This document shows positions 1-25,456 of a DNA stretch of 38,079 nt, in pieces; within the stretch, counting starts at the first letter, position 1, and every line of letters starts with the position of its first letter. Under the pieces are notes generated by a model that searched no databases, was not told where the DNA came from, and saw nothing but the letters and a program-made list of their open reading frames with translations. This DNA comes from Paludibacteraceae bacterium. Lineage in GTDB: Bacteria; Bacteroidota; Bacteroidia; Bacteroidales; Paludibacteraceae. Location: contig JAFSMP010000043.1 in NCBI GenBank assembly GCA_017447875.1, positions 1-38,079 of the forward strand. The letters are read 5' to 3'. The position numbers were made by a program, and so were the translations under genes.

Positions 1-28
1 TCAATTTTCAATTTTCAATTTTCAATTA
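1..28. repeat. heptamer array (TCAATTT)4
   Basis: Four tandem 7-bp units of TCAATTT; the last ends in A. The rimP stop codon (TTA on this strand, 26-28) lies inside the last unit, so the array forms the 3' end and downstream flank of rimP. The array may extend beyond the window. Confidence 0.85.
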
Positions 29-514
29 GAACCGAAGGTCGTACTTGACGTACTTCGGTTCATCGTAACGCCAGGTCTTGGTCACGATCTGCGTCTCCTT
101 GCGTTTCTTGCCTTCGACTGCCACCTTCTCCTCGATATCCACGCTAAACGTTTCCTCATCCACAGAAACAAGTTGACCTTTGTATTTTGTCCATTGTCCA
201 TTGTCCATTGTCCCGTGTCCCTTAGCCAGCACTTCGACGTCATGCCCCAGGTTCTTCTCGTACTGCATCTTGGTCTTGAACGGATCGGTCAGACTCACGC
301 TTCCTACTTCCAACGAGTAGTCCGGCTCTACGGCATCGAGTTTCTCCACGAGAAACCTATTCAGCTCCGCACAGAAATCCACATCCACTCCGGCCAGACG
401 GTCCACCTCCACCAGTATATCATTCCCTGCCGACACGTTCAGCGTGATCAGCTCGTACTCCGTACCTTTCAGGTACTCTTCAATCCAGTTTTTTAATTCG
501 TCCTTTAAAATCAT
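26..514 (-). CDS. rimP: Ribosome maturation factor RimP
   Basis: A 162-residue protein of the RimP family, which binds the 30S subunit during assembly. The N-terminal domain (about 1-80) holds the family pattern LEVGSVSLTDPFK at 69-81, followed by MQYEKNLGHDVEVL. The C-terminal SH3-like domain (about 90-162) ends YVKYDLRF, as in Bacteroidota RimP. I chose ATG at 514 because the longer frame reads back through the promoter at 569-600. Residues about 98-109 (GHGTMDNGQWTK) are encoded by a heptamer array on the opposite strand and look like an insertion into a short loop between beta strands. The stop codon lies in another array. Family assignment is secure; the effect of the loop insertion is unknown. 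It is the last gene of its leftward unit in this window. In many bacteria rimP precedes nusA and infB, which would lie beyond the window's left edge; that is not visible here. Confidence 0.9.
   Translation of the reverse strand: MILKDELKNWIEEYLKGTEYELITLNVSAGNDILVEVDRLAGVDVDFCAELNRFLVEKLDAVEPDYSLEVGSVSLTDPFKTKMQYEKNLGHDVEVLAKGHGTMDNGQWTKYKGQLVSVDEETFSVDIEEKVAVEGKKRKETQIVTKTWRYDEPKYVKYDLRF
188..222. repeat. heptamer array (TGTCCAT)5 inside rimP
   Basis: Five 7-bp units: three exact TGTCCAT, then TGTCCCG and TGTCCCT-like. It lies in frame within the rimP coding region but in antisense orientation. The same heptamer forms the second half of the composite elements at 8.1, 12.6, 14.0 and 18.8 kb. 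Confidence 0.85.
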
Positions 515-568
515 AAATCTTAAATCGAAGAGGAGACCTTTTCGGGTCCCCTCATTCAAAATCCGCTG

Positions 569-600
569 CAAAGGTACTGCTTTTTTTTGACATATGCAAA
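569..600 (-). promoter_or_regulatory. Bacteroidota-type promoter of rimP
   Basis: On the minus strand, TTTG (600-597), 20 nt, then TACCTTTG (576-569). The 32-bp core is nearly identical to the queF promoter at 6448-6479, including the CATATGTC and A-run spacer. Transcription should begin near 562, about 48 nt before the rimP start. Confidence 0.85.
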
Positions 601-633
601 TATTTTGCAAAAAAAATGCATTTCCTTGCGTAT

Positions 634-1074
634 TTAATGATCCTGATGCTCGTTCTTGATATGCTTGAAGAACAGGTTCACGGTGATGATCGCTGCTGTA
701 CCGATGATCGCTTCGGCGAACATACCGTATCCGCACAGACAGCCTATTGCTGCCGAACACCAGACGGTTGCCGCAGTCGTCAGACCCTTCACCGTGTCTC
801 CGTCCTTAAAGATGATTCCTGCACCCAGGAAACCGATACCGGATACTACCTGCGCGATGATACGACTGTTGTCTCCGCCGAAGATGGTCGGTGACATCAA
901 CACATACAGCGCGCCGCCGATGGCTATCAGCGACACGGTCCGTACGCCTACCATCTTGCCGTGCCACTCACGCTCCATACCGATCAGGTAGCCCAATACG
1001 GTCGCTAATCCGATCTTTGTCAACAACGTCCACCAGTCGGTTTGCACAAACGAATCAATAATACTTTGCATCAT
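634..1074 (-). CDS. MgtC/SapB family inner-membrane protein
   Basis: A 146-residue polytopic membrane protein with the family signatures LGYLIGMEREWHGKMVGVRT (about 27-46) and GIGFLGAGIIFKDGDTVKGL (about 79-98), the latter followed by TTAATVWCSAAIG. About four to five membrane segments are predicted by eye. It lacks the C-terminal ACT-like domain of longer MgtC proteins. MgtC proteins are tied to growth at low Mg2+ and to control of the F-ATPase; small versions like this occur widely without known virulence roles, so the cellular role here is inferred only at family level. The start is a double ATG (1074 or 1071). It has its own promoter 29 nt upstream and is read in the same direction as rimP. 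Confidence 0.85.
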   Translation of the reverse strand: MMQSIIDSFVQTDWWTLLTKIGLATVLGYLIGMEREWHGKMVGVRTVSLIAIGGALYVLMSPTIFGGDNSRIIAQVVSGIGFLGAGIIFKDGDTVKGLTTAATVWCSAAIGCLCGYGMFAEAIIGTAAIITVNLFFKHIKNEHQDH

Positions 1075-1102
1075 TTATCCCTTTCAAGACCCTTTCCGCC
1101 TG

Positions 1103-1134
1103 CAAAGGTACTACAAAAAATGCATACATGCAAA
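1103..1134 (-). promoter_or_regulatory. Promoter of the mgtC-like gene
   Basis: Minus strand TTTG (1134-1131), 20 nt containing GCATGTATGCA, then TACCTTTG (1110-1103). Predicted start near 1096, about 20 nt before the ATG. Confidence 0.8.
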
Positions 1135-1168
1135 TATTTAAGCAAGTTTTTGCAATATTTGTGCGATT

Positions 1169-1807
1169 TTATGCTTCTGCGGGTTCGTTTGGCGTGGTTT
1201 TGAGGTGTTTATACCAAAGGACCATATAAACGATTTCGCTGATGGTCACGACAAACGAGCACAAGCCGAGGTTCAGAGCCATCATTTTGGAGTCCGGGTT
1301 GGCATTCACCCAAACGGTAGAAATAGCCACACCTATTTGTCCTACGCAGAAAGCGAGTGCCCAGTTGTACATTTTTGTGTTGGTGTAATACTTTGCGATC
1401 AGGAGGAGTGCCGCGCATGCGGTGATCGTTTCTATGAGTGCGAATGAGACAGTTGCCCATAGTGCCATTTTCTCAATAGAGGCTGCGAGCAGGTATATTG
1501 CCACGCATTGGTTGAGAACCTGCACGAATCCGGAAACGGCCAGAGCACCACCTCCCCATTGAGCAAGTTTGTCTGCCGATGAGTACAGAACCCATCCGAG
1601 ACCAATCAGACATAAGGGAAGTAGGGTATTGGTACATGCGCTGACGAATTGGAGCGTACGTTGCATACTCTCGATGCCGTCTCCTCCCATTTGTTTCATG
1701 GCAGCCCATACTGCGCCGGCCATAGATACTAACATTACTACGCCGAATAGTACAAACCATCCGACAATCCATTTACGAATTTGTTTCTCTTTCATTGTTA
1801 TATACAT
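1169..1807 (-). CDS. Six-TM membrane protein of unknown family
   Basis: 212 residues with six hydrophobic segments at about 13-37, 52-75, 86-109, 114-138, 146-166 and 175-199. I see no catalytic motif and do not recognise the family. ATG at 1807 or, four codons later, at 1795 are both possible; neither has a clear ribosome site. It is the last gene of the leftward set beginning at 3514, starting 37 nt after the PH-domain gene stops. The C-terminus is short, polar and acidic (TTPNEPAEA). Its place behind a tethered HTH protein and two PH-like membrane proteins suggests a shared envelope job, but nothing in the sequence says which. Confidence 0.7.
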   Translation of the reverse strand: MYITMKEKQIRKWIVGWFVLFGVVMLVSMAGAVWAAMKQMGGDGIESMQRTLQFVSACTNTLLPLCLIGLGWVLYSSADKLAQWGGGALAVSGFVQVLNQCVAIYLLAASIEKMALWATVSFALIETITACAALLLIAKYYTNTKMYNWALAFCVGQIGVAISTVWVNANPDSKMMALNLGLCSFVVTISEIVYMVLWYKHLKTTPNEPAEA

Positions 1808-1844
1808 TTAGTTTAACTTATTTGCGAGTGCGAAGGGACTGCTT

Positions 1845-2333
1845 TTATTCCAAAGGCTCGGCAGAGGTGATAACGATGGGGCGTTTGGAGCGGCGGTAGA
1901 TGACGTAAGAGCGGGAAGGATCGGTGTAATAGGCCGTGAAATTGCCTATCTCGGAATGGCGAAAGAGTCCGACATTTCCCATGCAACCGCCTATACCGCA
2001 TAGGCGGATGGTCGTTCCCTTCGTCGGATACGGCTGGATGTCCGTGATCTCCGAACGAGGGATCGTGACTTTTCCCATATAACGATAGAGGATGATCTCT
2101 TTGTCATCGACCGACACGCCGCGCGGCGCAAAAGCGACACAGGAAACACAGGAACCTCCGATAAGAACGATCATCGGTATCAGCACCCCATACAACCATT
2201 CTTTGGGGATACGGTGATAAAAGAGCACTAAAATCACAATTACAGTGACTAAAATGCCGATTAAAAGCACAAAACTGATAGCCGTTGAATTGGCGAGATT
2301 ATCCGACCACGGGCAGGGAACATAGTTTTTCAT
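1845..2333 (-). CDS. Membrane protein with bacterial PH-like domain
   Basis: 162 residues. Two membrane segments (about 18-38 and 47-68) precede a domain at about 70-160 with the features of bacterial PH domains: a strand that senses a small molecule or lipid (DKEIILYRYMGKVTIPRSEI), then a glycine-rich stretch RLCGIGGCMGNVGLF and GNFTAYYTDPSRSYVIYR. That stretch resembles the bPH family whose members carry G-x-G-G-x-x-G before FTAY; the assignment is from memory of the family and moderate. Function is unknown; PH-like domains in such proteins are probably structural or scaffold-forming. It lies between the larger PH-like membrane protein (23 nt upstream) and the six-TM protein. Confidence 0.7.
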   Translation of the reverse strand: MKNYVPCPWSDNLANSTAISFVLLIGILVTVIVILVLFYHRIPKEWLYGVLIPMIVLIGGSCVSCVAFAPRGVSVDDKEIILYRYMGKVTIPRSEITDIQPYPTKGTTIRLCGIGGCMGNVGLFRHSEIGNFTAYYTDPSRSYVIYRRSKRPIVITSAEPLE

Positions 2334-2356
2334 AACCGGATAGATTTATAGGTACA

Positions 2357-3046
2357 TTACTTATGGTTTTTATGTTGTAAAATGGCTTTGCCGAGAGCGA
2401 TACTGTTGGCATGTCCGAACAGATTTCGCTCGACACCATTGATCTTCAGCCGCAAGGAGGGATAGAGAAAAAAGTCACTGCCTATCATTTCCACCGAATC
2501 GATGCTATCAATGGGAATACGCAATTCTTCCTCGCGGTTGAAGGGTTTGTTCTCCTGAATGATGAGCGTGTCACCGTCAATGATATATTTGTTGCGAGTG
2601 AGCAACACTATCATCCATGCTACAAATCCGACAAGAATGGCGATAAGGAGTGCCAGGATAGTAACAAAACCGGGGACTTCCATAAGACGGAACGCATTGT
2701 CCGCTACCTTTTGCAACGCCAGATCCACCGATCCGGTAGCAAAAAAAGCATGCGACACGGCTTCAATAAAAAAGACATAGTAAGTTAACACTACCATATA
2801 GGCATAATCTTGCCACGCGACACCATTACTGAAATCCTGATAGTCCGGTACAGGTGCCTTGCGTTCTTCGTCGGTCAGTACAACAGGAACCGTGCGCCGC
2901 CACGTTTTGTACCATATGAGCGCAAACAGCACTAATAATCCTACCATGATGAGTAAGTAAAACGGTTTGTCTTGCGCGAAACCATATAAAACACCCAAAA
3001 GCGTTGCGAGCACAAAAGCCGCGAGATAAGTCCAAAAACGTTTCAT
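2357..3046 (-). CDS. Four-TM membrane protein with C-terminal PH-like domain
   Basis: 229 residues. Hydrophobic segments at about 5-23, 28-46, 80-100 and 126-150 are followed by a soluble C-terminal domain (152-229): IDGDTLIIQENKPFNREEELRIPIDSIDSVEMIGSD. This has the strand pattern and the I-P-x-D-S-I-x-S-V motif seen in YdbS/bPH-type domains. Function is unknown. It starts 6 nt after the HTH gene stops, so the two are almost certainly co-transcribed and possibly translationally coupled. The next gene carries a second PH-like domain, so the operon may encode a membrane complex of PH-domain subunits; that is inference. Confidence 0.7.
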   Translation of the reverse strand: MKRFWTYLAAFVLATLLGVLYGFAQDKPFYLLIMVGLLVLFALIWYKTWRRTVPVVLTDEERKAPVPDYQDFSNGVAWQDYAYMVVLTYYVFFIEAVSHAFFATGSVDLALQKVADNAFRLMEVPGFVTILALLIAILVGFVAWMIVLLTRNKYIIDGDTLIIQENKPFNREEELRIPIDSIDSVEMIGSDFFLYPSLRLKINGVERNLFGHANSIALGKAILQHKNHK

Positions 3047-3052
3047 GCTAAT

Positions 3053-3514: not shown

Positions 3515-3540
3515 AATACGTCGATTTTTGAAATCCGATG

Positions 3541-3572
3541 CAAAGGTACTGCTTTTTTCTGAATTGTGCAAT
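3541..3572 (-). promoter_or_regulatory. Promoter of the HTH/PH-domain operon
   Basis: Minus strand ATTG (3572-3569, one mismatch to TTTG), 20 nt ending AAAAAAGCAG, then TACCTTTG (3548-3541). Start near 3534, about 20 nt before ATG 3514. Confidence 0.75.
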
Positions 3573-3577
3573 AGCTC

Positions 3578-3594
3578 GTGATACGGCATATCAC
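3578..3594. promoter_or_regulatory. Inverted repeat upstream of the HTH-operon promoter
   Basis: GTGATA-CGGCA-TATCAC, perfect 6-bp arms with a 5-nt centre, ending just upstream of the -33 box. Spacing and symmetry would suit a dimeric regulator, perhaps the HTH protein of this operon; this is inference. Confidence 0.4.
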
Positions 3595-3718
3595 AAAAAA
3601 AAGAAAATCTTCCGTTTAATATATTGACATTTAGATGATTAGTTCGACACCTTCGTTCGCTCTCATCGCACATTTTACATGAGAGGGCGGGATGAATGGA
3701 TAACCTTCATTTCGGATG

Positions 3719-3750
3719 CAAAGGTAGTGAAAATTTTTGATATATGCAAA
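3719..3750 (-). promoter_or_regulatory. Second, orphan promoter upstream of the HTH operon
   Basis: Minus strand TTTG (3750-3747), 20 nt with ATATATC, then TACCTTTG (3726-3719). All consensus positions match, yet the nearest well-supported start codon is about 200 nt away. It may be a distal promoter of the HTH operon or drive a short RNA ending at the T run near 3604-3597. Confidence 0.6.
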
Positions 3751-3779
3751 TTTTCGGGCATGGAAAAGTAATAAATATG

Positions 3780-3804
3780 AAAAAAAGCGCTCAAGAATGA
3801 GCGC
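3780..3804 (-). terminator. Rho-independent terminator of the OMP/lipoprotein operon
   Basis: Read on the minus strand: GCGCTCA, loop TTCT, TGAGCGC, then seven T. A perfect 7-bp stem 67 nt after the stop codon of the last lipoprotein gene. A further hairpin (ACGGCG/CGCCGT, 3826-3846) lies between stop codon and terminator. Confidence 0.85.
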
Positions 3805-6205: not shown

Positions 6206-6323
6206 TTATTCTTCCGTTTTTTCGTAATTTTCTTATATTTTTCTGCATTTTCTGTTGTTTTGAATATTCATTCCCTCGGAAATGACAAAAAAGTACGATT
6301 CTCGTTCCAAACAAGTCCCCGCA

Positions 6324-6367
6324 CCATAGGATAACCATAACATAACCATAGGATAACCATAGGATAA
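6324..6367. repeat. Tandem repeat, 4 x 11 bp (CCATAGGATAA)
   Basis: Exactly four units; units 1, 3 and 4 are identical CCATAGGATAA and unit 2 is CCATAACATAA. Lies about 80 nt upstream of the queF -33 box. Eleven bp is close to one DNA turn, so the units face the same side of the helix. Confidence 0.85.
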
Positions 6368-6426: not shown

Positions 6427-6447
6427 CTTTTTGTCTTGCATTTTTTA

Positions 6448-6479
6448 TTTGCATATGTCAAAAAAAAGCAGTACCTTTG
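6448..6479 (+). promoter_or_regulatory. Promoter of the queFCDE cluster
   Basis: TTTG (6448-6451), 20 nt (CATATGTC plus A run plus GCAG), TACCTTTG (6472-6479). Matches the rimP promoter almost base for base. Start near 6486. I saw no preQ1 riboswitch in the leader of about 56 nt. Confidence 0.85.
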
Positions 6480-6541
6480 CAGCCGATTTTGGAGAGTGCT
6501 ATTGTTTTTCCACTCTCGGCGAATAATAAAAACTGAAAACA

Positions 6542-7018
6542 ATGCGTACAGAAAATGAATTGCAGGGGGTGACCCTCCTGGGAAATCAGCACGTGCAGTA
6601 CTACGACAACTATAATCCCGGCGTGCTGGAGACCTTCCCGAACAAACATCCTGAGAACGAGTATCTCGTTACCTTCAATTGCCCGGAGTTTACCACACTC
6701 TGTCCCAAGACCGGACAACCCGATTTCGGGCACATCTACATCAGTTATATCCCCCGGGAGCGCATGGTGGAGAGCAAATCGCTCAAACTCTACCTCTTCT
6801 CCTTCCGCAATCACGGTGACTTCCATGAGGACTGCGTCAACATCATCATGAAGGATCTGGTGGCACTCATGGATCCCAAATACCTGGAGGTAACCGGTTG
6901 GTTCATGCCTCGCGGTGGCATCAGCATCTATCCGTTTGCTAACTACGCCGACAAGGAGCATGAGGAGTTGAAGAAACAACGCCTGCGTGAACAATTCACA
7001 TTAAACATTCAACATTAA
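6542..7018 (+). CDS. queF: NADPH-dependent 7-cyano-7-deazaguanine reductase
   Basis: 158 residues, the short (type I, YkvM-like) QueF that reduces preQ0 to preQ1 for queuosine in tRNA. Visible signatures: catalytic Cys54 in [18 protein letters not shown], Asp61, the [20 protein letters not shown] motif (76-95) that binds substrate and NADPH, and the closing RGGISIYPF. Length is usual for the family. The last residues (TLNIQH) are encoded by a heptamer array that continues into the start codon of queC. First gene of queF-queC-queD-queE, about 56 nt downstream of its transcription start. Confident. Confidence 0.95.
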
Positions 7019-7025
7019 ACATTCA
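6998..7025. repeat. Heptamer array across the queF-queC junction
   Basis: Four 7-bp units: ACATTAA, ACATTCA, ACATTAA, ACATTCA. It holds the last six queF codons, the queF stop (TAA 7016-7018) and the A of the queC ATG (7025). Confidence 0.9.
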
Positions 7026-7678
7026 TGAAAGATAGTATCATCGTTCTCTCCGGTGGACTCGACTCCACCACGATGCTGTACGAGTACCAGTACCGTATCG
7101 GTATGGCGCTTTCTTTCCACTATGGTTCGAACCATAACGACCGCGAGTTGGAGTTCGCCAAGTTGCATTGCGAGCGGCTCGGTATTCCCCATATGGTCAT
7201 TCGTCTGCCTTTCATCAAGCAGTTTTTCAAGTCCTCGTTGCTGGCCGGAGCAGACGCTATTCCCGAGGGCAACTACGACGACGAGAACATGAAATCGACC
7301 GTGGTGCCGTTTAGGAACGGTATCATGCTCTCTATCGCTGCCGGCATCGCAGAGAACAACAAGTTCCAGTACGTCATGCTGGCGAACCATTCGGGTGATC
7401 ATGCCATCTACCCTGACTGCCGACCGGAGTTCGTGGAAGCGATGAATAACGCCATTTGTTACGGCACCTGGAACGGCGTGCAGTTGCTCACACCTTATAC
7501 CCATCTTACCAAAGCGGAGATAGCCGCCAAAGGCAAGGACATGAACCTCGATTATTCGGAGACCTGGAGTTGCTACAAAGGCGGCGAGCATCATTGCGGT
7601 GTCTGCGGAACCTGCCGTGAACGCAAGGAAGCCCTTGCCCAAGCCGGCATTGAAGATCATACGGTGTATGAAAATTAA
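7025..7678 (+). CDS. queC: 7-cyano-7-deazaguanine synthase (preQ0 synthase)
   Basis: 217 residues, family length. QueC turns 7-carboxy-7-deazaguanine into preQ0 using ATP and ammonia. The PP-loop SGGLDST is at 9-15, and the C-terminal zinc site comprises Cys183, Cys191, Cys194 and Cys197 (WSCYKGGEHHCGVCGTC). The segment VVPFRNGIMLSIAAGIAE (94-111) is typical. The start codon is part of the heptamer array that ends queF; the stop codon lies in the next array (7675-7709). The 6-nt gap to queF makes co-translation likely. Confident. Confidence 0.96.
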   Translation: MKDSIIVLSGGLDSTTMLYEYQYRIGMALSFHYGSNHNDRELEFAKLHCERLGIPHMVIRLPFIKQFFKSSLLAGADAIPEGNYDDENMKSTVVPFRNGIMLSIAAGIAENNKFQYVMLANHSGDHAIYPDCRPEFVEAMNNAICYGTWNGVQLLTPYTHLTKAEIAAKGKDMNLDYSETWSCYKGGEHHCGVCGTCRERKEALAQAGIEDHTVYEN

Positions 7679-7709
7679 TTTTGAATTTTAAATTTTTAAT
7701 TTTGAATTA
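7675..7709. repeat. Heptamer array across the queC-queD junction
   Basis: Five 7-bp units: TTAATTT, TGAATTT, TAAATTT, TTAATTT, TGAATTA. The queC stop (TAA 7676-7678) is in the first unit and the A of the queD ATG (7709) is the last base of the fifth: the same arrangement as at queF-queC with a different unit sequence. Confidence 0.9.
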
Positions 7710-8151: not shown

Positions 8152-8799
8152 ATGTATAAAGTTAACGAAATATTCTTTACGCTTCAGGGCGAGGGTGCTC
8201 ATTCGGGTATCCCTGCTGTGTTTGTGCGTTTCAGCGGCTGTAACCTGCGCTGTCCGTGGTGCGACACCGAGTTTACAGAGTACACCGAGATGGGCGCCGA
8301 GCAGATCGTAAGTCAGATGTTAGAGATGTATGACCTGCCTAACGAACGCCGTAAGATGTGTGTCCTTACCGGCGGTGAACCGTCCCTGCAAGTAGATACA
8401 CCCCTTATCGATGCCCTCCATGCGGCCGGTTTCTATATCTGCATCGAGACGAACGGCACACGTTCCCTACCCGACGGTATCGACTGGATCACCTGTTCGC
8501 CGAAAGAATCCTCACTCAAACAATCTCAAACGACCTCAAACAACATCAAACTCCAAAAGGTTAACGAAGTGAAAGTCGTCTTTACCGGCACGTACGATCC
8601 CGAAGTTTGGCGCACCCAACTGGAAGCGGAACACTGGTTATTGCAGCCTTTGCGTTTTACGGGCGAATGGTTGATAGAAAATGTCGATTCCTGGGAAGAT
8701 GACCGTAACGACAACCTCAATGACACCGTCCGTTACATCCTCTCCCACCCCTTCTGGCGCCTCAGCGTCCAAATCCACAAAATAGCCGGCCTGAGATAG
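8152..8799 (+). CDS. queE: 7-carboxy-7-deazaguanine synthase (radical SAM)
   Basis: 215 residues. QueE makes 7-carboxy-7-deazaguanine from 6-carboxytetrahydropterin. The N-terminal motif VNEIFFTLQGEGAHSG (4-19) is followed by the radical-SAM cluster C-x3-C-x2-C at Cys30, Cys34 and Cys37 (SGCNLRCPWCDT), then TGGEPS (73-78) for SAM binding and IETNGT (98-103). ATG 8152 is chosen over an upstream GTG at 8128 because family members begin close to the NEIF motif. Residues 122-135 (LKQSQTTSNNIKLQ) are encoded by a 4 x 10-bp array in the loop between CSPK and VNEVKVV and look inserted. Last gene of the queF operon; its stop is 1 nt from the stop of the convergent FGE-domain gene. Confidence 0.94.
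   Translation: MYKVNEIFFTLQGEGAHSGIPAVFVRFSGCNLRCPWCDTEFTEYTEMGAEQIVSQMLEMYDLPNERRKMCVLTGGEPSLQVDTPLIDALHAAGFYICIETNGTRSLPDGIDWITCSPKESSLKQSQTTSNNIKLQKVNEVKVVFTGTYDPEVWRTQLEAEHWLLQPLRFTGEWLIENVDSWEDDRNDNLNDTVRYILSHPFWRLSVQIHKIAGLR
8515..8554. repeat. Decamer array inside queE
   Basis: Four 10-bp units: CTCAAACAAT, CTCAAACGAC, CTCAAACAAC, ATCAAACTCC. In frame with queE, encoding a Ser/Asn/Gln-rich loop. Confidence 0.85.
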
Positions 8800-11890: not shown

Positions 11891-11909
11891 AATCCTTCAA
11901 AATTTTGTG

Positions 11910-11941
11910 CAAAAGTACAAAAAAATTTGCATATATGCAAA
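11910..11941 (-). promoter_or_regulatory. nadC promoter (left half of palindromic divergent promoter)
   Basis: Minus strand TTTG (11941-11938), 20 nt, TACTTTTG (11917-11910). The -33 box is one end of the palindrome TTTGCATATATGCAAA (11926-11941), whose other end is the -33 box of the rightward promoter. Confidence 0.85.
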
Positions 11942-11957
11942 AAAAAGTGTAATTTTG
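11926..11957 (+). promoter_or_regulatory. Rightward promoter of the envelope-protein/rlmH unit
   Basis: TTTG (11926-11929), 20 nt, TAATTTTG (11950-11957). The 16-bp palindrome spans both -33 boxes. Expected start is near 11963, at or beside the GTG start codon (11962), implying a leaderless or nearly leaderless mRNA. Confidence 0.8.
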
Positions 11958-11961
11958 TGCC

Positions 11962-12623: not shown

Positions 12624-12735
12624 AGACCACTTCGTTAAAAGACATAAGACCGCTATGCTAAAAGACAAAAGACTATATACTATCGGACGAATCATTTTTA
12701 TCCTTCTTCCTTTGTCCTTATTCCTTTGTCCCTCC
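12624..12735. repeat. Composite repeat element, copy 2 (encodes a signal peptide)
   Basis: Two 23-bp units (12624-12646 and 12647-12669) starting AGACC, then AGAC, a spacer, and a TCC/TTTGTCC-rich second half (about 12700-12735). The start codon and signal peptide of the following lipoprotein gene lie inside it. Confidence 0.85.
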
Positions 12736-14025: not shown

Positions 14026-15007
14026 AGACCGTTTCACTAAAAGACAAAAGACCGCTTCGCTAAAAGACAAAAGACTATATACATTCGGACTAATCATTTT
14101 TGTCCTTTGTCTATTGTCCATTGTCCTTTGTCCGTCCTGCAAAACCGAAGCCCCGTGGACAACGAAGGATGTGAACATCACAATGGAGGTTAAGACCGTC
14201 TCGGCGGGATTTATCGAGTGTGAGTTCTCCACCAACAAAGAGGCATACTACCTTATCGCCATCGAGCCGGCACGTACCGACTACGACCCTATGGCGCACC
14301 AGAAAGAGTTTATGATGCTGGCGCTCGACTCCGCGAACGTAGAGTACATCCAATGGCGTAACTGGCTGCTTAAGAGCGGTGAGACCAATATCGCACCTTT
14401 CGCCAGTCATGCGCTGCAGTATGGCAAAGTCAATCATTTCTTCACGAACCTGGAACCGAGTACCGATTACTGGGTATTCGCCTTCGTGGTCAATCCTGAC
14501 AAACTGCAACCTGCCGGCAAACTGTACCTGGCACGACTGAAAACGAAAGCAGAGAGCACCGTGAACGTATTCTTCGAGTACCGCGTACGCGGCTATTGGG
14601 ATTATATCTATCCTGTGGATTCAACGGGCCATATCTATGACCATTTCCCCTATATGTGCGCCACGCGGGACAGCTTGGAGATATTGGAAGATGTGCCGGA
14701 ATCGGAACGCAGTACCGTCCAACTGGATACTGTTGCCTTGTGGTATTTCTCGGACTATTTCGAGGCATTTATGAAACCGGGCGTAGATGTCTCGCCGCTG
14801 CTCAACTACGGTGTCAAAGCCGTGGAGAACGACGGCTGGAACTCCTATCTGCAATTTGAGGTTGGACATACGTACTACACCGCCATCGTCGGTTGGGACG
14901 GTGAGATGGGTAATAACGTCATTTACAAATTCACCTGGACCGGCGAGGACTTCGAGGCATACTTCAAGAATGAAGATTCATTTATTTATGATTGGTACGA
15001 CGAGTGA
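14018..15007 (+). CDS. Lipoprotein with fibronectin-like domains, repeat-derived signal peptide
   Basis: 329 residues. The start ATG 14018 overlaps the previous stop. The first 41 residues are encoded by composite repeat copy 3 and match the preceding gene's signal peptide (KDKRLYT, IIF, LCPSC; lipidated Cys41), with an extra basic extension MNRDRFTKRQKTASL. The mature part has a fibronectin III/Ig-like N-terminal domain (about 50-165: VKTVSAGFIECEFSTNKEAY, then LEPSTDYWVFAFVVNP) and a second domain of similar length (about 170-329, FFEYRVRGYWDYIYPVDSTG) that may be another copy. It overlaps rlmH by 38 nt. No enzyme motif; role unknown, perhaps binding on the surface together with the hydrolase. 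Confidence 0.78.
   Translation: MNRDRFTKRQKTASLKDKRLYTFGLIIFVLCLLSIVLCPSCKTEAPWTTKDVNITMEVKTVSAGFIECEFSTNKEAYYLIAIEPARTDYDPMAHQKEFMMLALDSANVEYIQWRNWLLKSGETNIAPFASHALQYGKVNHFFTNLEPSTDYWVFAFVVNPDKLQPAGKLYLARLKTKAESTVNVFFEYRVRGYWDYIYPVDSTGHIYDHFPYMCATRDSLEILEDVPESERSTVQLDTVALWYFSDYFEAFMKPGVDVSPLLNYGVKAVENDGWNSYLQFEVGHTYYTAIVGWDGEMGNNVIYKFTWTGEDFEAYFKNEDSFIYDWYDE
14026..14135. repeat. Composite repeat element, copy 3 (encodes a signal peptide)
   Basis: Two 23-bp units (14026-14048, 14049-14071), AGAC (14072-14075), a spacer of about 25 nt, then five heptamers TGTCCTT, TGTCTAT, TGTCCAT, TGTCCTT, TGTCCGT (14101-14135). Read in the same frame as copies 2 and 4. Confidence 0.9.
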
Positions 15008-16460: not shown

Positions 16461-18055
16461 ATGATTCCTAATCCAACTAAAATGCTACAAATAGCGATCA
16501 GCCATTTCTTCCAACTGTCCATCTGACCTTTTACCTTCGGTAATTTCACTACCGGGAACATCACTTGTTCCGTCAGCGTGCGACCGAAGAGTACCGAGAC
16601 GAGGGCATCCGAGTTGATGGCCCAGCCGTTGGCGTTCAGCACCGGAGCCAGGTTACGACGACGCAACTTGAGCCAAGCCATGATCATGCTCGGACCCGAG
16701 ATGACAAGCAGGATACAAACGAACACAATAATGTATTGCCACCATTTGAAACCGCTCATGCCTTCTGCCACACTCACCAATGCCGCACCGATCATGCCTA
16801 ATGCCATACCGATGGCAGCGAAGATACCGGCAAATTTCGCGATATCGAAAGCGGGTTTCTGCTCTTCCTTCTTCTCGCCATTCGCTATTAACCCTTCGCC
16901 TTTCGCCGTCAGATCACCAAACGCTTTCGCGTCTTTCTCTGCCGCCGACTTATTGATCTTATCCTCCACCCAATTGGCAAACTTACGATACGGCGTCCAG
17001 AACGACTGACGAATACTAATCGGGTTGTCGATGATCTTCGTCACCGTGGCATCGTAATCGAGACCGTCGTTGTCATAGAACACGGCATTCTTGCCGATAC
17101 TCAGGTTATTCACCTCACCCTGCGTCACCGCTGCCACGATCGCCATCGACTTACCCGTCTTCTGGTTCACACAGTTGCAGTAAATCAGGTACATACCCGA
17201 CAACGGTGCCTGTGCGTCATGTTTCGCCGGATCGTGTACACGCATACACAAGTGACACGCGCGCTGATCAATAATAAGTGTACCTGCCTCGAACGATGCG
17301 ATCGTACTGCTGTCGCGGTCATAGAAGTCCTCCAAGGTCACGAAGTTACGCAACAAACGGTAGAAATCCCGGTGAATCAACAGCAACTTACGCAGCGGCA
17401 TAAACTCTGCCCTCGCTTCAGCGAGTTCACTTTCAACTTTCAACTTTAAACTTTCAACTTCAGATTCCCAACGGGCAATCTGAGCGCCCATTTCGAGGAA
17501 TTTCTTCTCCGTCATGCCCGGCTTCGGAGCATCTTCGGCAATCACAGCCAAACCTAACTTCTGCAGTTTCTCCTGCTCGAAATAAGCGGCATACTCTGCC
17601 TGTTTTTCTTTATACGCCGCGATCACATCTGCCTCTAACGGAGCAGCAGGCACAGGCTTCTCTTCAACTGTCACAGCATCGATAGCAGCTTGTACGTCCG
17701 CAAGACTCACCTTACCGTCCTTTGCCAGTTTCTCGGCAACGGCTTTGAGCGATTCGTCTGCAATATTGTCGAGTGCGATACTATCGCTCTGCTCGAACAG
17801 CGACTTGGCGTCTTTCAGCGTCGCGCACAGGTAATCTGCGGTTGCAATCACCTCTTTCACACGCAACTTACCGTCACCGTCCAAGTCCATCAGACTCAAC
17901 GAATCGCTGCTGATCTCCAGACCGGTCGTCGGACAGGACAACACCGTCCACATCTTCTTGTCCAGTTCTCCCAAATGACGGATATCCTCCGCCGATTGAA
18001 TACGAACGCGCGTCACACCGCCCACATTCGCAAAACTCCAATTGTACTTAGCCAT
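16406..18055 (-). CDS. EF-hand-containing inner-membrane protein of unknown function
   Basis: 549 residues. A canonical calcium-loop sequence [12 protein letters not shown] (57-68) and a weaker second one near [10 protein letters not shown] (111-120). An Ala/Glu-rich coiled coil follows (about 140-215), then a domain at about 220-345 with cysteine/histidine groups ([13 protein letters not shown] 267-279, CNC 293-295) that could bind metal. Three membrane segments follow (about 405-430, 438-462, 517-545). I do not recognise a named family. Two loops are encoded by heptamer arrays: 198-209 ([12 protein letters not shown]) and about 382-393 ([12 protein letters not shown]). First gene of an operon with the M23 peptidase; leader contains a further array (18062-18089). 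Function unknown; a link to wall metabolism is suggested by the overlap only. Confidence 0.8.
16878..16912. repeat. Heptamer array inside the EF-hand gene (1)
   Basis: Five units: CCATTCG, CTATTAA, CCCTTCG, CCTTTCG, CCGTCAG. Closely related to the array in argS at 25231-25272; both encode a peptide containing GEGLIA. Confidence 0.8.
17429..17462. repeat. Heptamer array inside the EF-hand gene (2)
   Basis: ACTTTCA, ACTTTCA, ACTTTAA, ACTTTCA and a partial fifth unit. Encodes [12 protein letters not shown] on the minus strand, within the coiled coil, and keeps the heptad-like pattern. Confidence 0.85.
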
Positions 18056-18061
18056 AAATAT

Positions 18062-18089
18062 CCAATTTACAATTTACAATTTACAAATT
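18062..18089. repeat. Heptamer array in the EF-hand gene leader
   Basis: CCAATTT, ACAATTT, ACAATTT, ACAAATT. Lies between the transcription start (near 18097) and the start codon (18055), ending 6 nt from the ATG. The mRNA copy is A/T-only apart from a few G. Confidence 0.85.
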
Positions 18090-18103
18090 TCAAAAATCGG
18101 GGA

Positions 18104-18135
18104 CAAAGGTACAAAAAAATTTGCATATATGCAAA
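18104..18135 (-). promoter_or_regulatory. EF-hand/M23 operon promoter (left half of palindromic divergent promoter)
   Basis: Minus strand TTTG (18135-18132), 20 nt, TACCTTTG (18111-18104). Shares palindrome TTTGCATATATGCAAA (18120-18135) with the opposite promoter, identical to that at 11926-11941. Confidence 0.85.
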
Positions 18136-18151
18136 AAAAATTGTACTTTTG
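18120..18151 (+). promoter_or_regulatory. Rightward promoter of the EamA transporter gene
   Basis: TTTG (18120-18123), 20 nt, TACTTTTG (18144-18151). Start near 18158, leaving a leader of about 11 nt before ATG 18169. Confidence 0.85.
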
Positions 18152-18168
18152 TGCTCATTTTTGAATGT

Positions 18169-19137
18169 ATGTGGATTGTTTTAGCGTTTATATCGGCTGT
18201 TTGCCTTGGCTTTTATGACATCTCGAAGAAGATTGCATTGGCCGACAACAAGGTCATCGACGTGCTCACGCTCAGCGTTTGTTTCTCGTCCTTGGCCCTC
18301 TCTGTCCCGCTTATCCTCTCGCGAGTCTGCCCGGAAATAATGATCGGTACGCATTTCTATGTGCCTACCATGGATCTTGAAGCCCACCTCTTTACCATCC
18401 TCAAGTCCGCCATTGTCCTCAGTTCATGGATCTTTGCGTATATATCGCTCAAGCACCTGCCTATCTCTGTGGTTAGCCCCATGCAAGCGACTCGCCCCAT
18501 GTGGACACTCGTCGGCGCACTTCTTATCTTCGGTGAACGGCTCAACACCTGGCAGTGGATCGGCGTGATACTTGCCATTGGAACGGTCTTTCTCTTCTCA
18601 CTCGGCGCCACTAAAACGACTAACCACCCTGCCCTCTTCAAGGAGCATAAATTCTATTACCTCTGCCTCGCGCTTGCTATCCTCATCGGCTCCTGTTCCG
18701 GCTTGTACGACAAGTACCTAATGCGCCGTTACGACCATAACGCCGTGCAGGTCTATTACACGTTCTATCAAGCGATTATGATGCTCATTGTTTGGGGAAT
18801 AGACCGCTTCGCTAAAAGACAAAAGACCGCTTCGCTAAAAGACAAAAGACTTAATACACTAGCAGACACAAACCAGTCTATTGTCCATTGTCCATCGTCC
18901 ATCGTCCCGATCATCTTGATTTCGATTTTTTTGATCATCTCGGACAACGTCTACATGCTCGCTCTCCGCGACCCAGACTCCATGATAGCAGTCGTCAGTA
19001 CGATCCGTCGTGGCGGTGCCGTCATCGGCTTTGCCTACGGTCTTCTTTTTCTCCGCGAGAACGATCCTTGGCGCAAGATCCTCTGCATGCTCGGCATCCT
19101 TGCCGGCCTCATCTGCCTTGCGTTCGGCTCAATTTGA
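18169..19137 (+). CDS. EamA/DMT-family transporter with a repeat-derived loop
   Basis: 322 residues, two EamA-like halves with about ten membrane segments: IVLAFISAVCLGFYDISKKI at the start, PMQATRPMWTLVGALLIFGE (first EamA signature), LCLALAILIGSCSGLYDKYL (start of the second half) and STIRRGGAVIGFAYGLLFLR (second signature). DMT proteins export or import metabolites; substrate unknown. ATG 18169 gives an 11-nt leader; the frame upstream is promoter. The loop after the segment AIMMLIVWGI is encoded by composite repeat copy 4: DRFAKRQKTASLKDKRL followed by a polar stretch to CPSS. It is strongly basic, consistent with a cytoplasmic loop. About 35 residues longer there than the other loops. 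Confidence 0.88.
   Translation: MWIVLAFISAVCLGFYDISKKIALADNKVIDVLTLSVCFSSLALSVPLILSRVCPEIMIGTHFYVPTMDLEAHLFTILKSAIVLSSWIFAYISLKHLPISVVSPMQATRPMWTLVGALLIFGERLNTWQWIGVILAIGTVFLFSLGATKTTNHPALFKEHKFYYLCLALAILIGSCSGLYDKYLMRRYDHNAVQVYYTFYQAIMMLIVWGIDRFAKRQKTASLKDKRLNTLADTNQSIVHCPSSIVPIILISIFLIISDNVYMLALRDPDSMIAVVSTIRRGGAVIGFAYGLLFLRENDPWRKILCMLGILAGLICLAFGSI
18801..18904. repeat. Composite repeat element, copy 4 (inside the transporter gene)
   Basis: Two identical 23-bp units (18801-18823, 18824-18846) beginning AGACCGCTTCGCTAAAAG, AGAC (18847-18850), a 26-nt spacer, then four heptamers TCTATTG, TCCATTG, TCCATCG, TCCATCG (18877-18904). Read through in frame. Confidence 0.92.
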
Positions 19138-19165
19138 CGATTTTCCGCATTTTTCTTCGAAAAAA

Positions 19166-19197
19166 TTTGCACAATCCAAAAAAAAGCAGTACCTTTG
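19166..19197 (+). promoter_or_regulatory. rpsA promoter
   Basis: TTTG (19166-19169), 20 nt ending AAAAAAGCAG, TACCTTTG (19190-19197). Start near 19204; leader of about 110 nt. Confidence 0.85.
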
Positions 19198-19255
19198 CAC
19201 GCTTTTTCCGCGGTGACGCGAAAAGAGGCTAACATGTTTAACCCTTTAACGGGAT

Positions 19256-19295
19256 CCTAGAGCGACCTAGCTAGACCTAGTGCGACCTAGTTCCC
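19256..19295. repeat. Decamer array in the rpsA leader
   Basis: Four 10-bp units starting CCTAG: CCTAGAGCGA, CCTAGCTAGA, CCTAGTGCGA, CCTAGTTCCC. Ends 17 nt before the rpsA ATG. The CTAG motifs (four) are palindromic and rare elsewhere in the window. Confidence 0.85.
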
Positions 19296-22417: not shown

Positions 22418-22420
22418 GCG

Positions 22421-23761
22421 ATGATCTCACCGTTTACATTACCACCAAGTCCGGAGGCGCAAAAAGCCGCTAAGGAAGTGATCGAGAAGGTACATGCGTA
22501 TATGGACATGCACCCGAAAAGCGAATTGCATCGATGTGGCAAAATGTTCGGTGTGCTGGTCTACGAAGACGGATATCTGGCTGCGTTCTCTGCCAAACTG
22601 GACGGGACGTATTATCATGAAGGGTTTGTGCCGCCCGTTTATGAGATGACGGAAGAACCAATCGGGACTTCTAAAGCCGAATCGCAAAGGCTGCAAAGGT
22701 TGTTGTTCGCGAACTATAACTTCATTAATGGCAAAGGCGAGAGCAAGAATCTACTGGAGATCTTTAGAAACGAAAAAGTTGTTAGTCCTGAGGATTGGTT
22801 TAGCGGCAAGACATCTTCTTCCTTACCGCCTTCTGGAGCAGGGGAATGCTGTGCGCCGAAGTTGTTGCAACATGCGTTGACGCATGGACTGAAACCGGTA
22901 AGTCTGGCGGAGTTCTGGGTGGGTGCACCTTCCAAGACAGAAATCAGACAGGAAGGAGCGTTTTATGCCCCGTGTTCGGGAAAGTGCGTTCCAATACTCA
23001 AGCACATGCTTGAGGGATTACAGGTTACAGGTTATGAGTTACAGGTTACGGGTTACGGGAAGCCGGAAATAATCTATGAGGACGAATGGTTGATGGTGGT
23101 GAATAAGCCTGCGGGACTGCTCTCTGTTCCGGGCAAAAACGAGGAACCTTCGGTTGAAAGTCTGCTTCACGCTAAACCTGTACACCGCCTTGATCAGGAT
23201 ACTTCCGGCCTCCTTGTACTCGCCAAGAAACCGGAAATATATAAAGAACTACAAGCCTATTTCCAAAGGCGTGACATTCTCAAGCGGTATGAAGCCATAT
23301 GTAAGGGATTAGGGATTGGAGAATTAGGGATTAGGGGAGAGATTTCCCTACCCCTTTTGCCGAATCCGTATGACCGGCCGCGACAGATGGTGGACAGAGA
23401 GCACGGGAAAGTGGCAATCACCCGGTACGTGATACGAGAGAGAAGGGACGACGGAAGCGTATTGGTGGATTTCTATCCGCTCACAGGTCGCACGCACCAA
23501 TTACGTGTACATGCTGCCCATCCGGATGGATTGAATGCGCCTATCGTGGGTGACCGCTTATACGGATCAGCCGGCGAACGACTGATGCTCCATGCCGCGG
23601 AAATCACTTTTGTACATCCCGTAACAAAAGAAGAGATGCATTTCTGCATCCCTTCGAATTTCGGAAAACATCCTTTACATGCGCTCCGGCATCTCAATAC
23701 CGAGGAGCGACATCGCGGAAGCCAACACTTTCGCTACGTTCTTCGCAAGCAAGAGACGTAG
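22421..23761 (+). CDS. RluA-family pseudouridine synthase with N-terminal extension
   Basis: 446 residues. The catalytic domain (about 215-425) has the RluA motif HRLDQDTSGLLVLAK with catalytic Asp258, then YEAICKG, TRYVI, LTGRTHQLRVHAAH (motif III) and GDRLYG. Such enzymes isomerise uridines in 23S rRNA or tRNA. The N-terminal 200 residues (AFSAKLDGTYYHEGFVPPVY, GAFYAPCSGKCVPILKHMLEG) form a domain seen in some Bacteroidota RluA proteins; role unknown. Two heptamer arrays lie in frame: residues 200-213 (LQVTGYELQVTGYG) and about 294-306 (KGLGIGELGIRG). The last 29 residues are encoded opposite the end of argS (87-bp tail-to-tail overlap), so the C-terminus is unusual in length. Last gene of its unit. 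Confidence 0.9.
   Translation: MISPFTLPPSPEAQKAAKEVIEKVHAYMDMHPKSELHRCGKMFGVLVYEDGYLAAFSAKLDGTYYHEGFVPPVYEMTEEPIGTSKAESQRLQRLLFANYNFINGKGESKNLLEIFRNEKVVSPEDWFSGKTSSSLPPSGAGECCAPKLLQHALTHGLKPVSLAEFWVGAPSKTEIRQEGAFYAPCSGKCVPILKHMLEGLQVTGYELQVTGYGKPEIIYEDEWLMVVNKPAGLLSVPGKNEEPSVESLLHAKPVHRLDQDTSGLLVLAKKPEIYKELQAYFQRRDILKRYEAICKGLGIGELGIRGEISLPLLPNPYDRPRQMVDREHGKVAITRYVIRERRDDGSVLVDFYPLTGRTHQLRVHAAHPDGLNAPIVGDRLYGSAGERLMLHAAEITFVHPVTKEEMHFCIPSNFGKHPLHALRHLNTEERHRGSQHFRYVLRKQET
23018..23059. repeat. Heptamer array in the pseudouridine synthase gene (1)
   Basis: Six units: TTACAGG, TTACAGG, TTATGAG, TTACAGG, TTACGGG, TTACGGG. 42 bp is 14 codons and encodes a repeated LQVTGY peptide at the boundary between N-terminal extension and catalytic domain. 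Confidence 0.9.
23302..23337. repeat. Heptamer array in the pseudouridine synthase gene (2)
   Basis: Units TAAGGGA, TTAGGGA, TTGGAGA, an 8-nt ATTAGGGA and TTAGGGG. Encodes GLGIGELGIRG between the YEAICKG strand and the next part of the catalytic domain. Confidence 0.75.
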
Positions 23762-25456
23762 GGCTCGTTTGGCTACGTCGGGTTCATTCAGGATACTGAG
23801 GTCGTGATAGAACGAGTTGAAGTCGCATGCGAGATCATACGCGTAGTTACAGATGACCGCAGGTGAGAAGTTATCACCGGCATTGCGAACTACTGCAGGA
23901 TACTCGCAAAGACGCTGAATCAAAGCAAGTTCTTTCTCTTCGAGGTCTCGAGATCTCGCGGACTCAACATCTCGAGGATCTGCTTTCCGCAACACCGACT
24001 GAATACGCGCGTAGGTGTACTGAATAAAGGGACCTGTGTTACCGTTGAAGTCGATGGACTCGGCAGGGTTGAAGAGCATGTTCTTGCGCGGATCAACCTT
24101 CAAGATGAAGTACTTGAGAGCACCCAGTCCTACTTTGCGGGCAATCTCGTTCGCCTCAGCCTCAGTGATACCTTGCAAGGTGTTTACCTTGTCCTTGGAG
24201 ATCTCCTTGGCGTCCTCGATCATCTTATCCATGAGGTCGTCGGCATCAACGACCGTGCCTTCGCGCGATTTCATCTTGCCGTTCGGCAGTTCAACCATAC
24301 CGTAACTGAAGTGCACCAGTTCCTTGCCGAACGGGAAACCGAGACGGTCAAGCAGGATAGAAAGCACCTTGAAGTGGTATTCCTGTTCGTTACCGACCAC
24401 ATAAACCATCTTATCAATCGGATAATCCTGGAAACGCAGTTTGGCAGTTCCGATGTCCTGGGTCATATAGACCGAAGTGCCGTCCGAACGGAGCAGCAGT
24501 TTCTCATCCAGTCCGTCTTTGGTGAGGTCTGCCCAAACAGAACCATCTTCACGACGATAGAACTGTCCACTCGCCAGACCTTTCTCCACTTCGGATTTAC
24601 CTTCCAGATACGTATTCGACTCGTAGTAGATCTTATCGAACGACACGCCCATGCGTTGGTAGGTCTCGTCAAAACCGGCATATACCCATTCGTTCATCTT
24701 CGCCCACAGGGCACGGATCTCAGGATCGTTCGCTTCCCATTTACGCAGCATCTCTTGTGCCTCCAACATCAGCGGAGCTTCCTTCTTTGCAGTCTCTTCG
24801 TCCTTGCCGGCAGCCATCAGTTCAGCGATCTGCGCTTTGTACTCCTGGTCGAAACGCACGTAGTAGTCACCGATGAGGTGATCTCCCTTCTTACCGCTTG
24901 TCTCAGGTGTCTCACCGTTGCCGAACTGCAACCACGCAAGCATGGACTTGCAGATATGGATGCCGCGGTCGTTAACGATATTGGTCTTAACCACCTTCCA
25001 TCCGTTCGCCTCCTGGATCTTCGCGATCGAATAGCCCAGCAGGTTATTACGCACGTGACCAAGATGCAAAGGCTTATTCGTATTGGGAGAACTATATTCC
25101 ACCATCATGAGTTTATCCCGACTCGGCTGCTGACCGTAGTTAGCGTCCGTATCAATGGCTTCGAGTTGCTTTACCCAGAAGGCATCGTCGATGACGAGAT
25201 TAAGGAAACCTTGTACCGCGTTGTATTTAGCGATCAACCCTTCTCCATTCGCCATTAACCATTCACCCATTTCAGCCGCTACTTGTGCCGGGGCCTTGCG
25301 GGCTAACTTAACAAACGGGAAAACGACTACCGTCAAGTTACCTTCAAACTCCGGACGGGTCTTTTGCAACTGGATCTGGGCATCACTTGCCTCCACACCA
25401 TAAAGCGCCTTGACGGCGTCTTTGACTAATACCGATATCTTTTCTTCTAAACTCAT
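23675..25456 (-). CDS. argS: Arginyl-tRNA synthetase
   Basis: 593 residues, class I synthetase charging tRNA-Arg. An N-terminal Arg_tRNA_synt_N (additional) domain (1-90) is followed by the catalytic core with HIGH-equivalent HLGH (131-134, in SSPNTNKPLHLGHVRNN) and the KMSKS-equivalent MKSREGTVVDADDL, then the anticodon-binding DALR domain ending LLGIEMPERM. Two arrays fall in frame: residues 62-76 (MGEWLMANGEGLIA) by a six-unit heptamer array, and about 493-506 (ADPRDVESARSRDLEE) by an octamer array in the linker before the DALR domain. Both look like loop insertions. Third gene of the leftward MBL-DPM1-argS unit, 35 nt after the glycosyltransferase; its 3' end overlaps the convergent pseudouridine synthase gene. 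Confidence 0.96.
   Translation of the reverse strand: MSLEEKISVLVKDAVKALYGVEASDAQIQLQKTRPEFEGNLTVVVFPFVKLARKAPAQVAAEMGEWLMANGEGLIAKYNAVQGFLNLVIDDAFWVKQLEAIDTDANYGQQPSRDKLMMVEYSSPNTNKPLHLGHVRNNLLGYSIAKIQEANGWKVVKTNIVNDRGIHICKSMLAWLQFGNGETPETSGKKGDHLIGDYYVRFDQEYKAQIAELMAAGKDEETAKKEAPLMLEAQEMLRKWEANDPEIRALWAKMNEWVYAGFDETYQRMGVSFDKIYYESNTYLEGKSEVEKGLASGQFYRREDGSVWADLTKDGLDEKLLLRSDGTSVYMTQDIGTAKLRFQDYPIDKMVYVVGNEQEYHFKVLSILLDRLGFPFGKELVHFSYGMVELPNGKMKSREGTVVDADDLMDKMIEDAKEISKDKVNTLQGITEAEANEIARKVGLGALKYFILKVDPRKNMLFNPAESIDFNGNTGPFIQYTYARIQSVLRKADPRDVESARSRDLEEKELALIQRLCEYPAVVRNAGDNFSPAVICNYAYDLACDFNSFYHDLSILNEPDVAKRALRLLLAKNVAKVLASAMSLLGIEMPERM
23939..23978. repeat. Octamer array inside argS
   Basis: Five 8-bp units: TTCGAGGT, CTCGAGAT, CTCGCGGA, CTCAACAT, CTCGAGGA. 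Encodes a charged Asp/Arg/Glu-rich linker. Confidence 0.8.
25231..25272. repeat. Heptamer array inside argS
   Basis: Six units: CGATCAA, CCCTTCT, CCATTCG, CCATTAA, CCATTCA, CCCATTT. 42 bp, 14 codons. Related to the array at 16878-16912. Confidence 0.85.

Follow-up and report, generated by a model that had tools for sequence, protein, structure and literature searches.

Contig JAFSMP010000043.1 of a Paludibacteraceae bacterium (assembly GCA_017447875.1), hereafter the window (38,079 nucleotides, analysed whole), contains short tandem arrays of imperfect units, most often of seven bases, within genes and at gene junctions. The strong arrays exceed chance, and their units belong to families that are shared within a genome above expectation. 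We interpret the arrays as a genome-wide, self-perpetuating minisatellite population in which slippage in cis is combined with a putative copying in trans, a reading to which we assign a probability of roughly one half.

The window was scanned with Tandem Repeats Finder (TRF; reporting score of at least 30) and with a strict autocorrelation scan cut at a score of 12. Fifteen array sites had been named in an earlier note made from the window sequence. TRF reports 13 of these (1, 187, 6323, 6994, 7677, 8515, 16875, 17429, 18063, 19256, 23018, 23304 and 23940), with 21722 and 25231 unreported. The strict scan retains nine (1, 187, 6323, 6998, 7677, 8515, 17429, 18063 and 23018) and adds two arrays absent from the earlier list, at 14099 and 18876. 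The weak sites 16875, 19256, 21722, 23304, 23940 and 25231 fall below the strict cut and are supported at most by a TRF score; 16875 and 25231 have words of the type TTCGCCATT/TTAACC in common. Gene names are based on Pfam domains for ArgS, RimP, QueC, the EamA transporter, S1, pseudouridine synthase, shikimate dehydrogenase (AroE), GDP-mannose dehydratase (GMD), Mur ligase and TatD, and on resemblance for queF, queD and queE. The gene caller is crude, with 94.7% of bases called coding and with the window sites 23018, 7677 and 14099 misplaced. The features of the window are as follows.

1..27, no strand assigned: period-7 array (TCAATTT)3.9 at the end of rimP, supplying its stop codon; TRF score 54, strict score 20.
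187..221, minus strand: period-7 array within rimP (RimP_N domain), GGACAAT in the gene sense; TRF and strict scan.
6323..6367, no strand assigned: intergenic period-11 array (ACCATAGGATA)4.1; TRF score 76, strict score 22.
6994..7025, plus strand: period-7/14 array from the 3' end of queF up to the start codon of queC (QueC domain); TRF and strict scan.
7677..7708, plus strand: period-7 array filling the queC-queD gap and overlapping the queC stop codon; strict scan.
8515..8551, plus strand: period-10 array (TCAAAC + 4) within queE; TRF and strict scan.
12624..12731, plus strand: composite of 23-bp repeats (AGACC..CTAAAAGACAAA) followed by a TTTGTCC array, encoding a signal peptide-like N terminus as judged by eye; TRF.
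14026..14133, plus strand: second copy of the composite, signal peptide-like by eye (FVLCLLSIVLCPSC); TRF.
16875..16907, minus strand: weak period-7 array (TCGCCAT/TTAACCC) in a coding sequence; TRF only, score 31.
17429..17460, minus strand: period-7 array (ACTTTCA) in the same coding sequence as the 16875 array; TRF and strict scan.
18063..18094, no strand assigned: period-7 array (CAATTTA) between divergent genes; TRF and strict scan.
18801..18907, plus strand: third copy of the composite, in an EamA transporter gene (EamA domain); TRF.
19256..19291, plus strand: period-10 CCTAG array upstream of a gene with six S1 domains (rpsA-like); TRF score 44, below the strict cut.
23018..23059, plus strand: period-7 array (TTACAGG) in a pseudouridine synthase gene (PseudoU_synth_2); TRF and strict scan.
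23304..23336, plus strand: period-7 array (AGGGATT) in the same pseudouridine synthase gene; TRF score 43, below the strict cut.
23940..23981, minus strand: weak period-8 array (TCGAGATC) within argS; TRF score 33.
25225..25270, minus strand: weak ATGGCGA-type words in argS (Arg-tRNA synthetase domains), at the GEWLMANGEGLIAK loop; not reported by TRF.

At period 7 the strict scan finds nine arrays in the window, against a mean of 0.02 (maximum 1) in 50 dinucleotide shuffles and a mean of 0.00 (maximum 0) in 200 codon-order shuffles; for periods 8–11 pooled, two arrays were observed against 0.04 in shuffles (maximum 1). The excess extends to the genome of which the window is one contig (G000; 2.25 Mb, 76.7% complete). 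A sample of 392,279 bases, which includes the window and derives mostly from contigs with known ATTGTCC matches but mostly from outside those matches, contains 51, 14, 6, 8 and 6 strict arrays of periods 7 to 11, respectively, and none of periods 4–6. In ten shuffles of this sample, the mean was 0.2 for period 7 and 0.1 for each of periods 4 and 5, while periods 6 and 8–11 yielded no array. In 1.23 Mb around argS in 80 relatives (the argS loci), the counts for periods 4 to 11 are 0, 0, 6, 177, 53, 19, 7 and 43. Short period-6 matches (13–24 bp) are also in excess over dinucleotide shuffles, probably owing to codon structure, which this shuffle breaks. That no array lies right of about 25.3 kb, as had been remarked, is true for strict arrays of periods 7–11 and carries little weight, because the sampled rate of 51 per 392 kb predicts only about 1.7 period-7 arrays for that part.

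The nearest named relatives are Paludibacteraceae or uncultured Bacteroidales assemblies, many of them sampled from rumen; genomes and loci are designated here by G and L numbers. The sampled density of period-7 arrays per 100 kb is 42 in G034 (a small sample, 17 arrays in 40 kb), 16 in G033, 13 in G000, 11 in G014, 1 in G024 and 0 in G028, which has no period-7 array in the 200 kb read. The count was likewise 0 in G008 and G013, in less than 31 kb each, and the arrays of G002, G011 and G024 are mainly of periods 8–11. Eight genomes from other families of the order gave one period-7 array in 277 kb read. G055 (816 bases) was left out of the counts; the stretches of G022 and one outgroup genome are N throughout. 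Enrichment of period 7 over both kinds of shuffle, array sizes clustering near 31 bp and the occurrence throughout the genus support the proposal of the earlier note that a generating process is shared. Selection for unstructured DNA, which the note had offered as another explanation, would by itself yield no period.

The notion that each locus has its own unit does not hold. TTGTCC-type units are found in the window at 187, 12697, 14099 and 18883, and the two-unit ATTGTCC 14-mer has 20 matches at 13 sites in G000. Across the genus, 26 of 121 genomes have the ATTGTCC pair, their counts ranging from 1 match to 83 (83 in G117, 37 in G034), and 63 of the 121 have CTTTCGA arrays, with 1 to 68 matches. 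Reversed-word controls for ATTGTCC, CTTTCGA and AATCTTC gave 0 or 1; CTTTCAA was left without such a control, since its reversal gives a circularly identical word. Inspection by eye of about 70–80 bp per side shows flanks that are unrelated beyond the repeats for at least half of the ATTGTCC copies in G000 and for 14 inspected loci of G117 and six of G034. About half of the ATTGTCC arrays of G000 sit within a larger composite, and four inspected ATTGTCC loci were read as open reading frames (ORFs) whose domains are of the MurF, shikimate dehydrogenase, TatD and GDP-mannose dehydratase types.

Sharing is higher within than between genomes. Array pairs with an exact word in common number 99 of 1275 within G000, 19 of 153 within G014 and 24 of 918 between the two genomes. 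Among the 80 argS loci, units are shared by 40 of 278 within-species pairs and by 694 of 15298 between-species pairs. Permutation of species labels in GC bins gave 16.5 ± 3.7 sharing pairs within species, and none of 2000 permutations reached the observed 40.

The likeness of unit length and copy number across sites, pointed out in the earlier note, is upheld in the larger samples. Period-7 arrays peak at a length of 30–33 bp (98 of 228), and the median total length for periods 7 to 11 is 31, 31, 30, 36 and 35 bp, all figures being influenced by the detection threshold. Neither GGG nor CCC is present in 280 of 308 period-7 arrays; among these 280, 65 have three whole copies, 140 have four and 29 have five. 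The excess over shuffles in G000 is about 9, 11, 5, 10, 8, 21, 15, 15 and 6 in successive bins from 14 to 45 bp, with the same shape in the argS loci, and amounts to 50 at 29–38 bp versus 35 at 14–25 bp in G000 and to 137 versus 100 in the argS loci. If arrays grew stepwise, short forms would be expected to outnumber the four- to five-copy forms, and they do not. G014 has a single array of about 45 ATGAGTG-type heptamers (L157, from 18), far beyond the usual four.

Arrays also occupy loops of conserved proteins. In ArgS, RimP, AroE, GMD and the pseudouridine synthase, the same loop has different in-frame fillings in different species, and the reading frame is uninterrupted through the fillings shown. 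For RimP, AroE and GMD, which have matches in 105, 112 and 87 genomes, respectively, the 30 best-scoring loci were used, and AroE, which has one such loop, was extended to 50 of its 112. The RimP loop is short (EGKKLRG type) in 21 of 30 loci and longer in the other nine, including the window, where the GGACAAT array at 187..221 encodes GHGTMDNGQWTKYKG. The GMD loop is of a short KGIDxKTGK type in 10 of 30 loci, and inspection by eye assigns heptamer arrays of about five word families to eight, G-run palindromes to three and other fillings to nine. Two loops of this kind exist in ArgS and were read in 80 relatives; in several of these, the weak ArgS site of the window (25225..25270) is an array site. 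The pseudouridine synthase loop at window 23018 contains two other arrays in L065, with only four loci comparable. The G-run palindromes, about 30 bp long, are found in the same loops at argS (L057, L065, L069, L078, L079, L087 and L093) and at GMD (L343, L356 and L358). Between L078 and L081, palindrome and array alternate in one ArgS loop with equal peptide length. Arrays provide a route by which conserved proteins may gain new loop sequence, and loop length and sequence in these proteins from metagenome-assembled genomes (MAGs) are a poor phylogenetic signal.

At AroE, the word in the loop was compared with its abundance in the host genome. Four AAGTCGA alleles are hosted by genomes with 22, 36, 40 and 48 CTTTCGA matches, three AAGTTGA-type alleles by genomes with 1, 1 and 9, and the 43 other genomes have 0 to 68. 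The difference gives p values of 0.025 against the AAGTTGA-type alleles and 0.0037 against all 46 others, and two unselected GGACAAT alleles (G002 and G026) are accompanied by 14 and 11 further ATTGTCC matches (p 0.014), all statistics that draw on few alleles and ignore phylogeny. A comparison of AATCTTC with the single GATTGAA-type allele (G030, with nine matches, one of them AroE itself) was set aside as uninformative, G110 and G000 having nine and eight matches without the allele. The AroE loop tends to carry a word that its genome has in abundance; abundance does not place a word there.

Orthologous sites were compared in both directions, with several species per site (88 and 145 comparisons). 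Ordinary substitution at the same sites in relatives, which the earlier note had considered, accounts for part of the 88 directed comparisons in which flank identity was 90% or more: in 28 the array is plainly inherited with its length kept (10 identical, 18 with substitutions only). In another 28 the length differs and units are shared, in six there is an array of a different unit, and in 26 no array is detected (12 at least 15 bp shorter, 14 with other sequence). Close relatives differ by whole units, as in L075/L077 (7, 14 and 21 bp), L078/L081 and others, and length changes that are not whole units are at least as common. A clean 36-bp insertion just before ATG separates L063 from L054, and between conserved flanks arrays are swapped for arrays of other words (L046/L062, L078/L081). 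Along queF-queC-queD-queE, the three junctions were read in up to 28 of 30 loci; almost every species has its own sequence there, and many, not all, of the junctions are arrays. The queC-queD gap of the window (7677..7708) corresponds to other sequence in most other species, often arrays. Several junction arrays are built around the stop codon, such as GACTAG at queD-queE, and some junctions are nearly empty (L132, L134). Well inside called ORFs, as delimited by the crude caller, are 30 of 85 arrays.

In the proposed mechanism, replication slippage within an array would add, remove and homogenise copies, and between sites an existing array, or its single-stranded piece, would act as template. 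The copying might proceed by short-homology template switching or ectopic conversion performed by ordinary replication and repair enzymes, and insertions would persist where their sequence and length do no harm. With each new array copied from an older one, a genome would inherit its period and vocabulary. A reverse transcriptase seems not to be needed for this. RVT_1, present in 5 of 22 genomes, was found neither in the array-rich G014, G017, G033, G034 and G117 nor in G000 (77% complete), and a reverse transcriptase as the engine was discarded on the result in the five array-rich genomes. We advance more tentatively, as something we would sooner doubt than accept, that a cell-wide seven-base vocabulary copied in trans rewrites the loops of essential enzymes to the currently common words, and that arrays come into being with four to five copies instead of growing to that number. 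If true, dispersed 30-bp arrays would evolve in concert across a whole bacterial genome.

Several observations count against copying in trans. Two- and three-copy forms are present above shuffles, although they do not outnumber the four- to five-copy forms, and the similar total length across periods is a hint that insertion includes a size-measuring step, for which the copying model has no explanation. The plainly inherited arrays belong here as well, and no insertion was caught in one lineage together with its donor. Short homology at the target gave a weak signal (mean longest match 4.67 versus 4.40 shuffled, reached by 6 of 300, in 66 non-independent comparisons), and target-site homology as a rule was abandoned. 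The AroE statistics, limited as they are in alleles and phylogeny, meet contrary cases. Seven genomes with 29–68 CTTTCGA matches do not have that word at AroE, and G117, G000, G004 and G136, with 15–83 ATTGTCC matches, do not have GGACAAT there. The mirror test shows no difference, with 3, 7 and 11 CTTTCAA matches for AAGTTGA-type alleles versus 1, 3, 4 and 20 for AAGTCGA alleles, and slippage within an array could also convert AAGTCGA to AAGTTGA. Finally, Y1_Tnp scores above cut-off in 8 of 22 genomes, including G117, G000 and G034 (the latter two as partial matches).

The first alternative is slippage in cis only, in which a local chance repeat grows, seven is favoured by the contact length of DNA polymerase (Mrazek, as quoted) and shared words are a coincidence of composition. 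It explains the whole-unit changes between close relatives and the homogenisation, and it can draw on the two- and three-copy excess, on the local stop-codon word in several junction arrays (GACTAG at queD-queE) and on the heptamer excess already known in other bacteria. It does not easily account for the recurrence of words in unrelated flanks, for the sizes of the arrays or for the agreement between a site and the vocabulary of its genome: the excess is larger at 29–38 bp than at 14–25 bp in both data sets, identical words stand in unrelated flanks, and the sharing within species was unreached by the GC-binned permutations. We consider this alternative unlikely, if still worth serious attention.

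Doubtful to a somewhat greater degree is a dedicated enzyme, such as a transposase, a reverse transcriptase or a telomerase-like activity, that would insert cassettes of about 30–36 bp as heptamer arrays or G-run palindromes. The many different words of a single genome are difficult to reconcile with it, no target duplication was recognised by eye, and of the two families searched RVT_1 was not found in the five array-rich genomes and G000, nor Y1_Tnp in the array-rich G014, G017 and G033. Nevertheless, the median length of 30–36 bp at each period from 7 to 11, the alternation of palindrome and array in the ArgS loop of L078/L081, the occupation of the GMD loop by both, the clean 36-bp insertion in L063 versus L054, the variable array density among congeners and the Y1_Tnp matches of G117, G034 and G000 all agree with such an enzyme.

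A selected function of the arrays, as binding sites or spacers for translation, termination or a heptamer-binding protein, is improbable: many arrays do stand at tight gene junctions and copy number prefers four, but a substantial part lies well inside called ORFs, orthologous sites differ in words, and G028 dispenses with period-7 arrays in 200 kb. That the arrays are chance, low complexity or an artefact of metagenome assembly is scarcely credible: the named relatives are indeed uncultured or MAG assemblies by title, and the weak window sites have no demonstrated excess over chance, yet the shuffle and codon-shuffle controls and the same loops filled with the frame kept in many separate assemblies contradict it.

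Further regularities were noted among the units. The composite of about 100 bp consists of AGACCGCTTCGCTAAAAGACAAAAGAC or a variant, a spacer and a GTCTATTGTCC array; besides the three window copies it occurs at L005, L010, L011 and L019, and in two window genes it forms, by eye, a lipoprotein signal peptide-like N terminus. The core TCAAAC/GTTTGA is common to period-10 arrays at window 8515, L021 3322, L027 14411, L031 650/2870 and L034 8547/12609, and occurs also at period 8 (L031 613, L034 8510). CTAG is generally rare in bacterial DNA. Arrays centred on it, with period 8, 9 or 10 and variable spacers, were found at window 19256, L025 7557 and L037 17264, and at the queD-queE junction of L122, L123, L125, L126, L135, L138 and L139. 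A grammar of a hexamer core plus fixed spacer was rejected, the span of variable columns being not beyond chance (3.41 versus 3.74 at period 8, 3.27 versus 3.35 at period 7), as were phase-locked array edges, whose start bias is a product of the start definition used. Separately, a TTTGCATATATGCAAAAAA-type stretch with GTAC(C)TTTGC or its complement, which looks promoter-like, lies near gene starts on both strands (window about 575–620, 3540–3570, 6440–6485, 11905–11960, 18105–18160 and 19165–19200).

Searches of open-licence PMC papers gave none linking Paludibacteraceae with tandem repeats, and a combined-topic search for 7-bp, heptamer or minisatellite repeats in Bacteroidetes had no match. 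The G-run palindromes lie beside arrays that are themselves direct repeats, unlike the palindromes of REP/RAYT, and a telomerase-like or retroelement origin would call for the reverse transcriptase that RVT_1 searches did not detect in G000 and the five array-rich genomes. Like the heptameric simple sequence repeats of the LSSR/STRR kind, the arrays are dispersed 7-bp tandems beyond chance with whole-unit variation; heptamer excess is also a feature of cyanobacterial STRR. The difference is that slippage in cis alone misses the word sharing and size distribution found here. The earlier note knew of no formal account of the origin of such arrays; heptamer excess was in fact treated by Mrazek in 2007, with slippage proposed, as quoted in PMC4679880 and PMC4692102, and the latter mentions Calothrix heptanucleotides.

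The GGGNATC repeats of Xanthomonas and Nostoc (PMC4692102) are similar in being dispersed heptamers with a four-unit preference and with length and sequence variation between close relatives. They are one G-rich type, under-represented in coding regions, with the four units tied to G-quadruplexes, whereas the present arrays comprise many families, are often in genes and reach four copies in half of those that have no GGG or CCC. G-tracts for a quadruplex are missing from most (280 of 308 of period 7). The TAACTGA repeats (PMC4679880) of Beggiatoaceae, Cyanobacteria and some Bacteroidetes, Paludibacter among them, are likewise heptamers at many loci, and it has been suggested that they may move; the type genome has them in runs of two to six. 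They consist of a single invariant word and lie for the most part a short way upstream of start codons, in contrast to the changing vocabulary found here, which also enters the loops of conserved enzymes; TAACTGA doublets number 0 on both strands of the 392-kb G000 sample. Rickettsia palindromic elements (PMC10969869) resemble the arrays in lying in frame within protein genes, but are palindromes of about 150 bp with a conserved peptide, whereas the arrays are direct repeats of about 31 bp whose peptide varies by species.

These papers describe the heptamer excess without a tested cause, and one of them ties the four-unit preference to G-quadruplexes. Here a four-copy preference exists without G-tracts, in a genus of more than 100 sequenced species with array-rich and array-poor members. 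Orthologous sites allow gain, loss and rewriting to be tracked, and the old puzzle of seven bases and about four copies becomes directly testable. Heptamer excess, the slippage hypothesis and dispersed heptamer families are already in print (PMC4679880 and PMC4692102); as far as literature searches show, the scale within conserved protein loops, the changing vocabulary and the four-copy preference without G-tracts are new.

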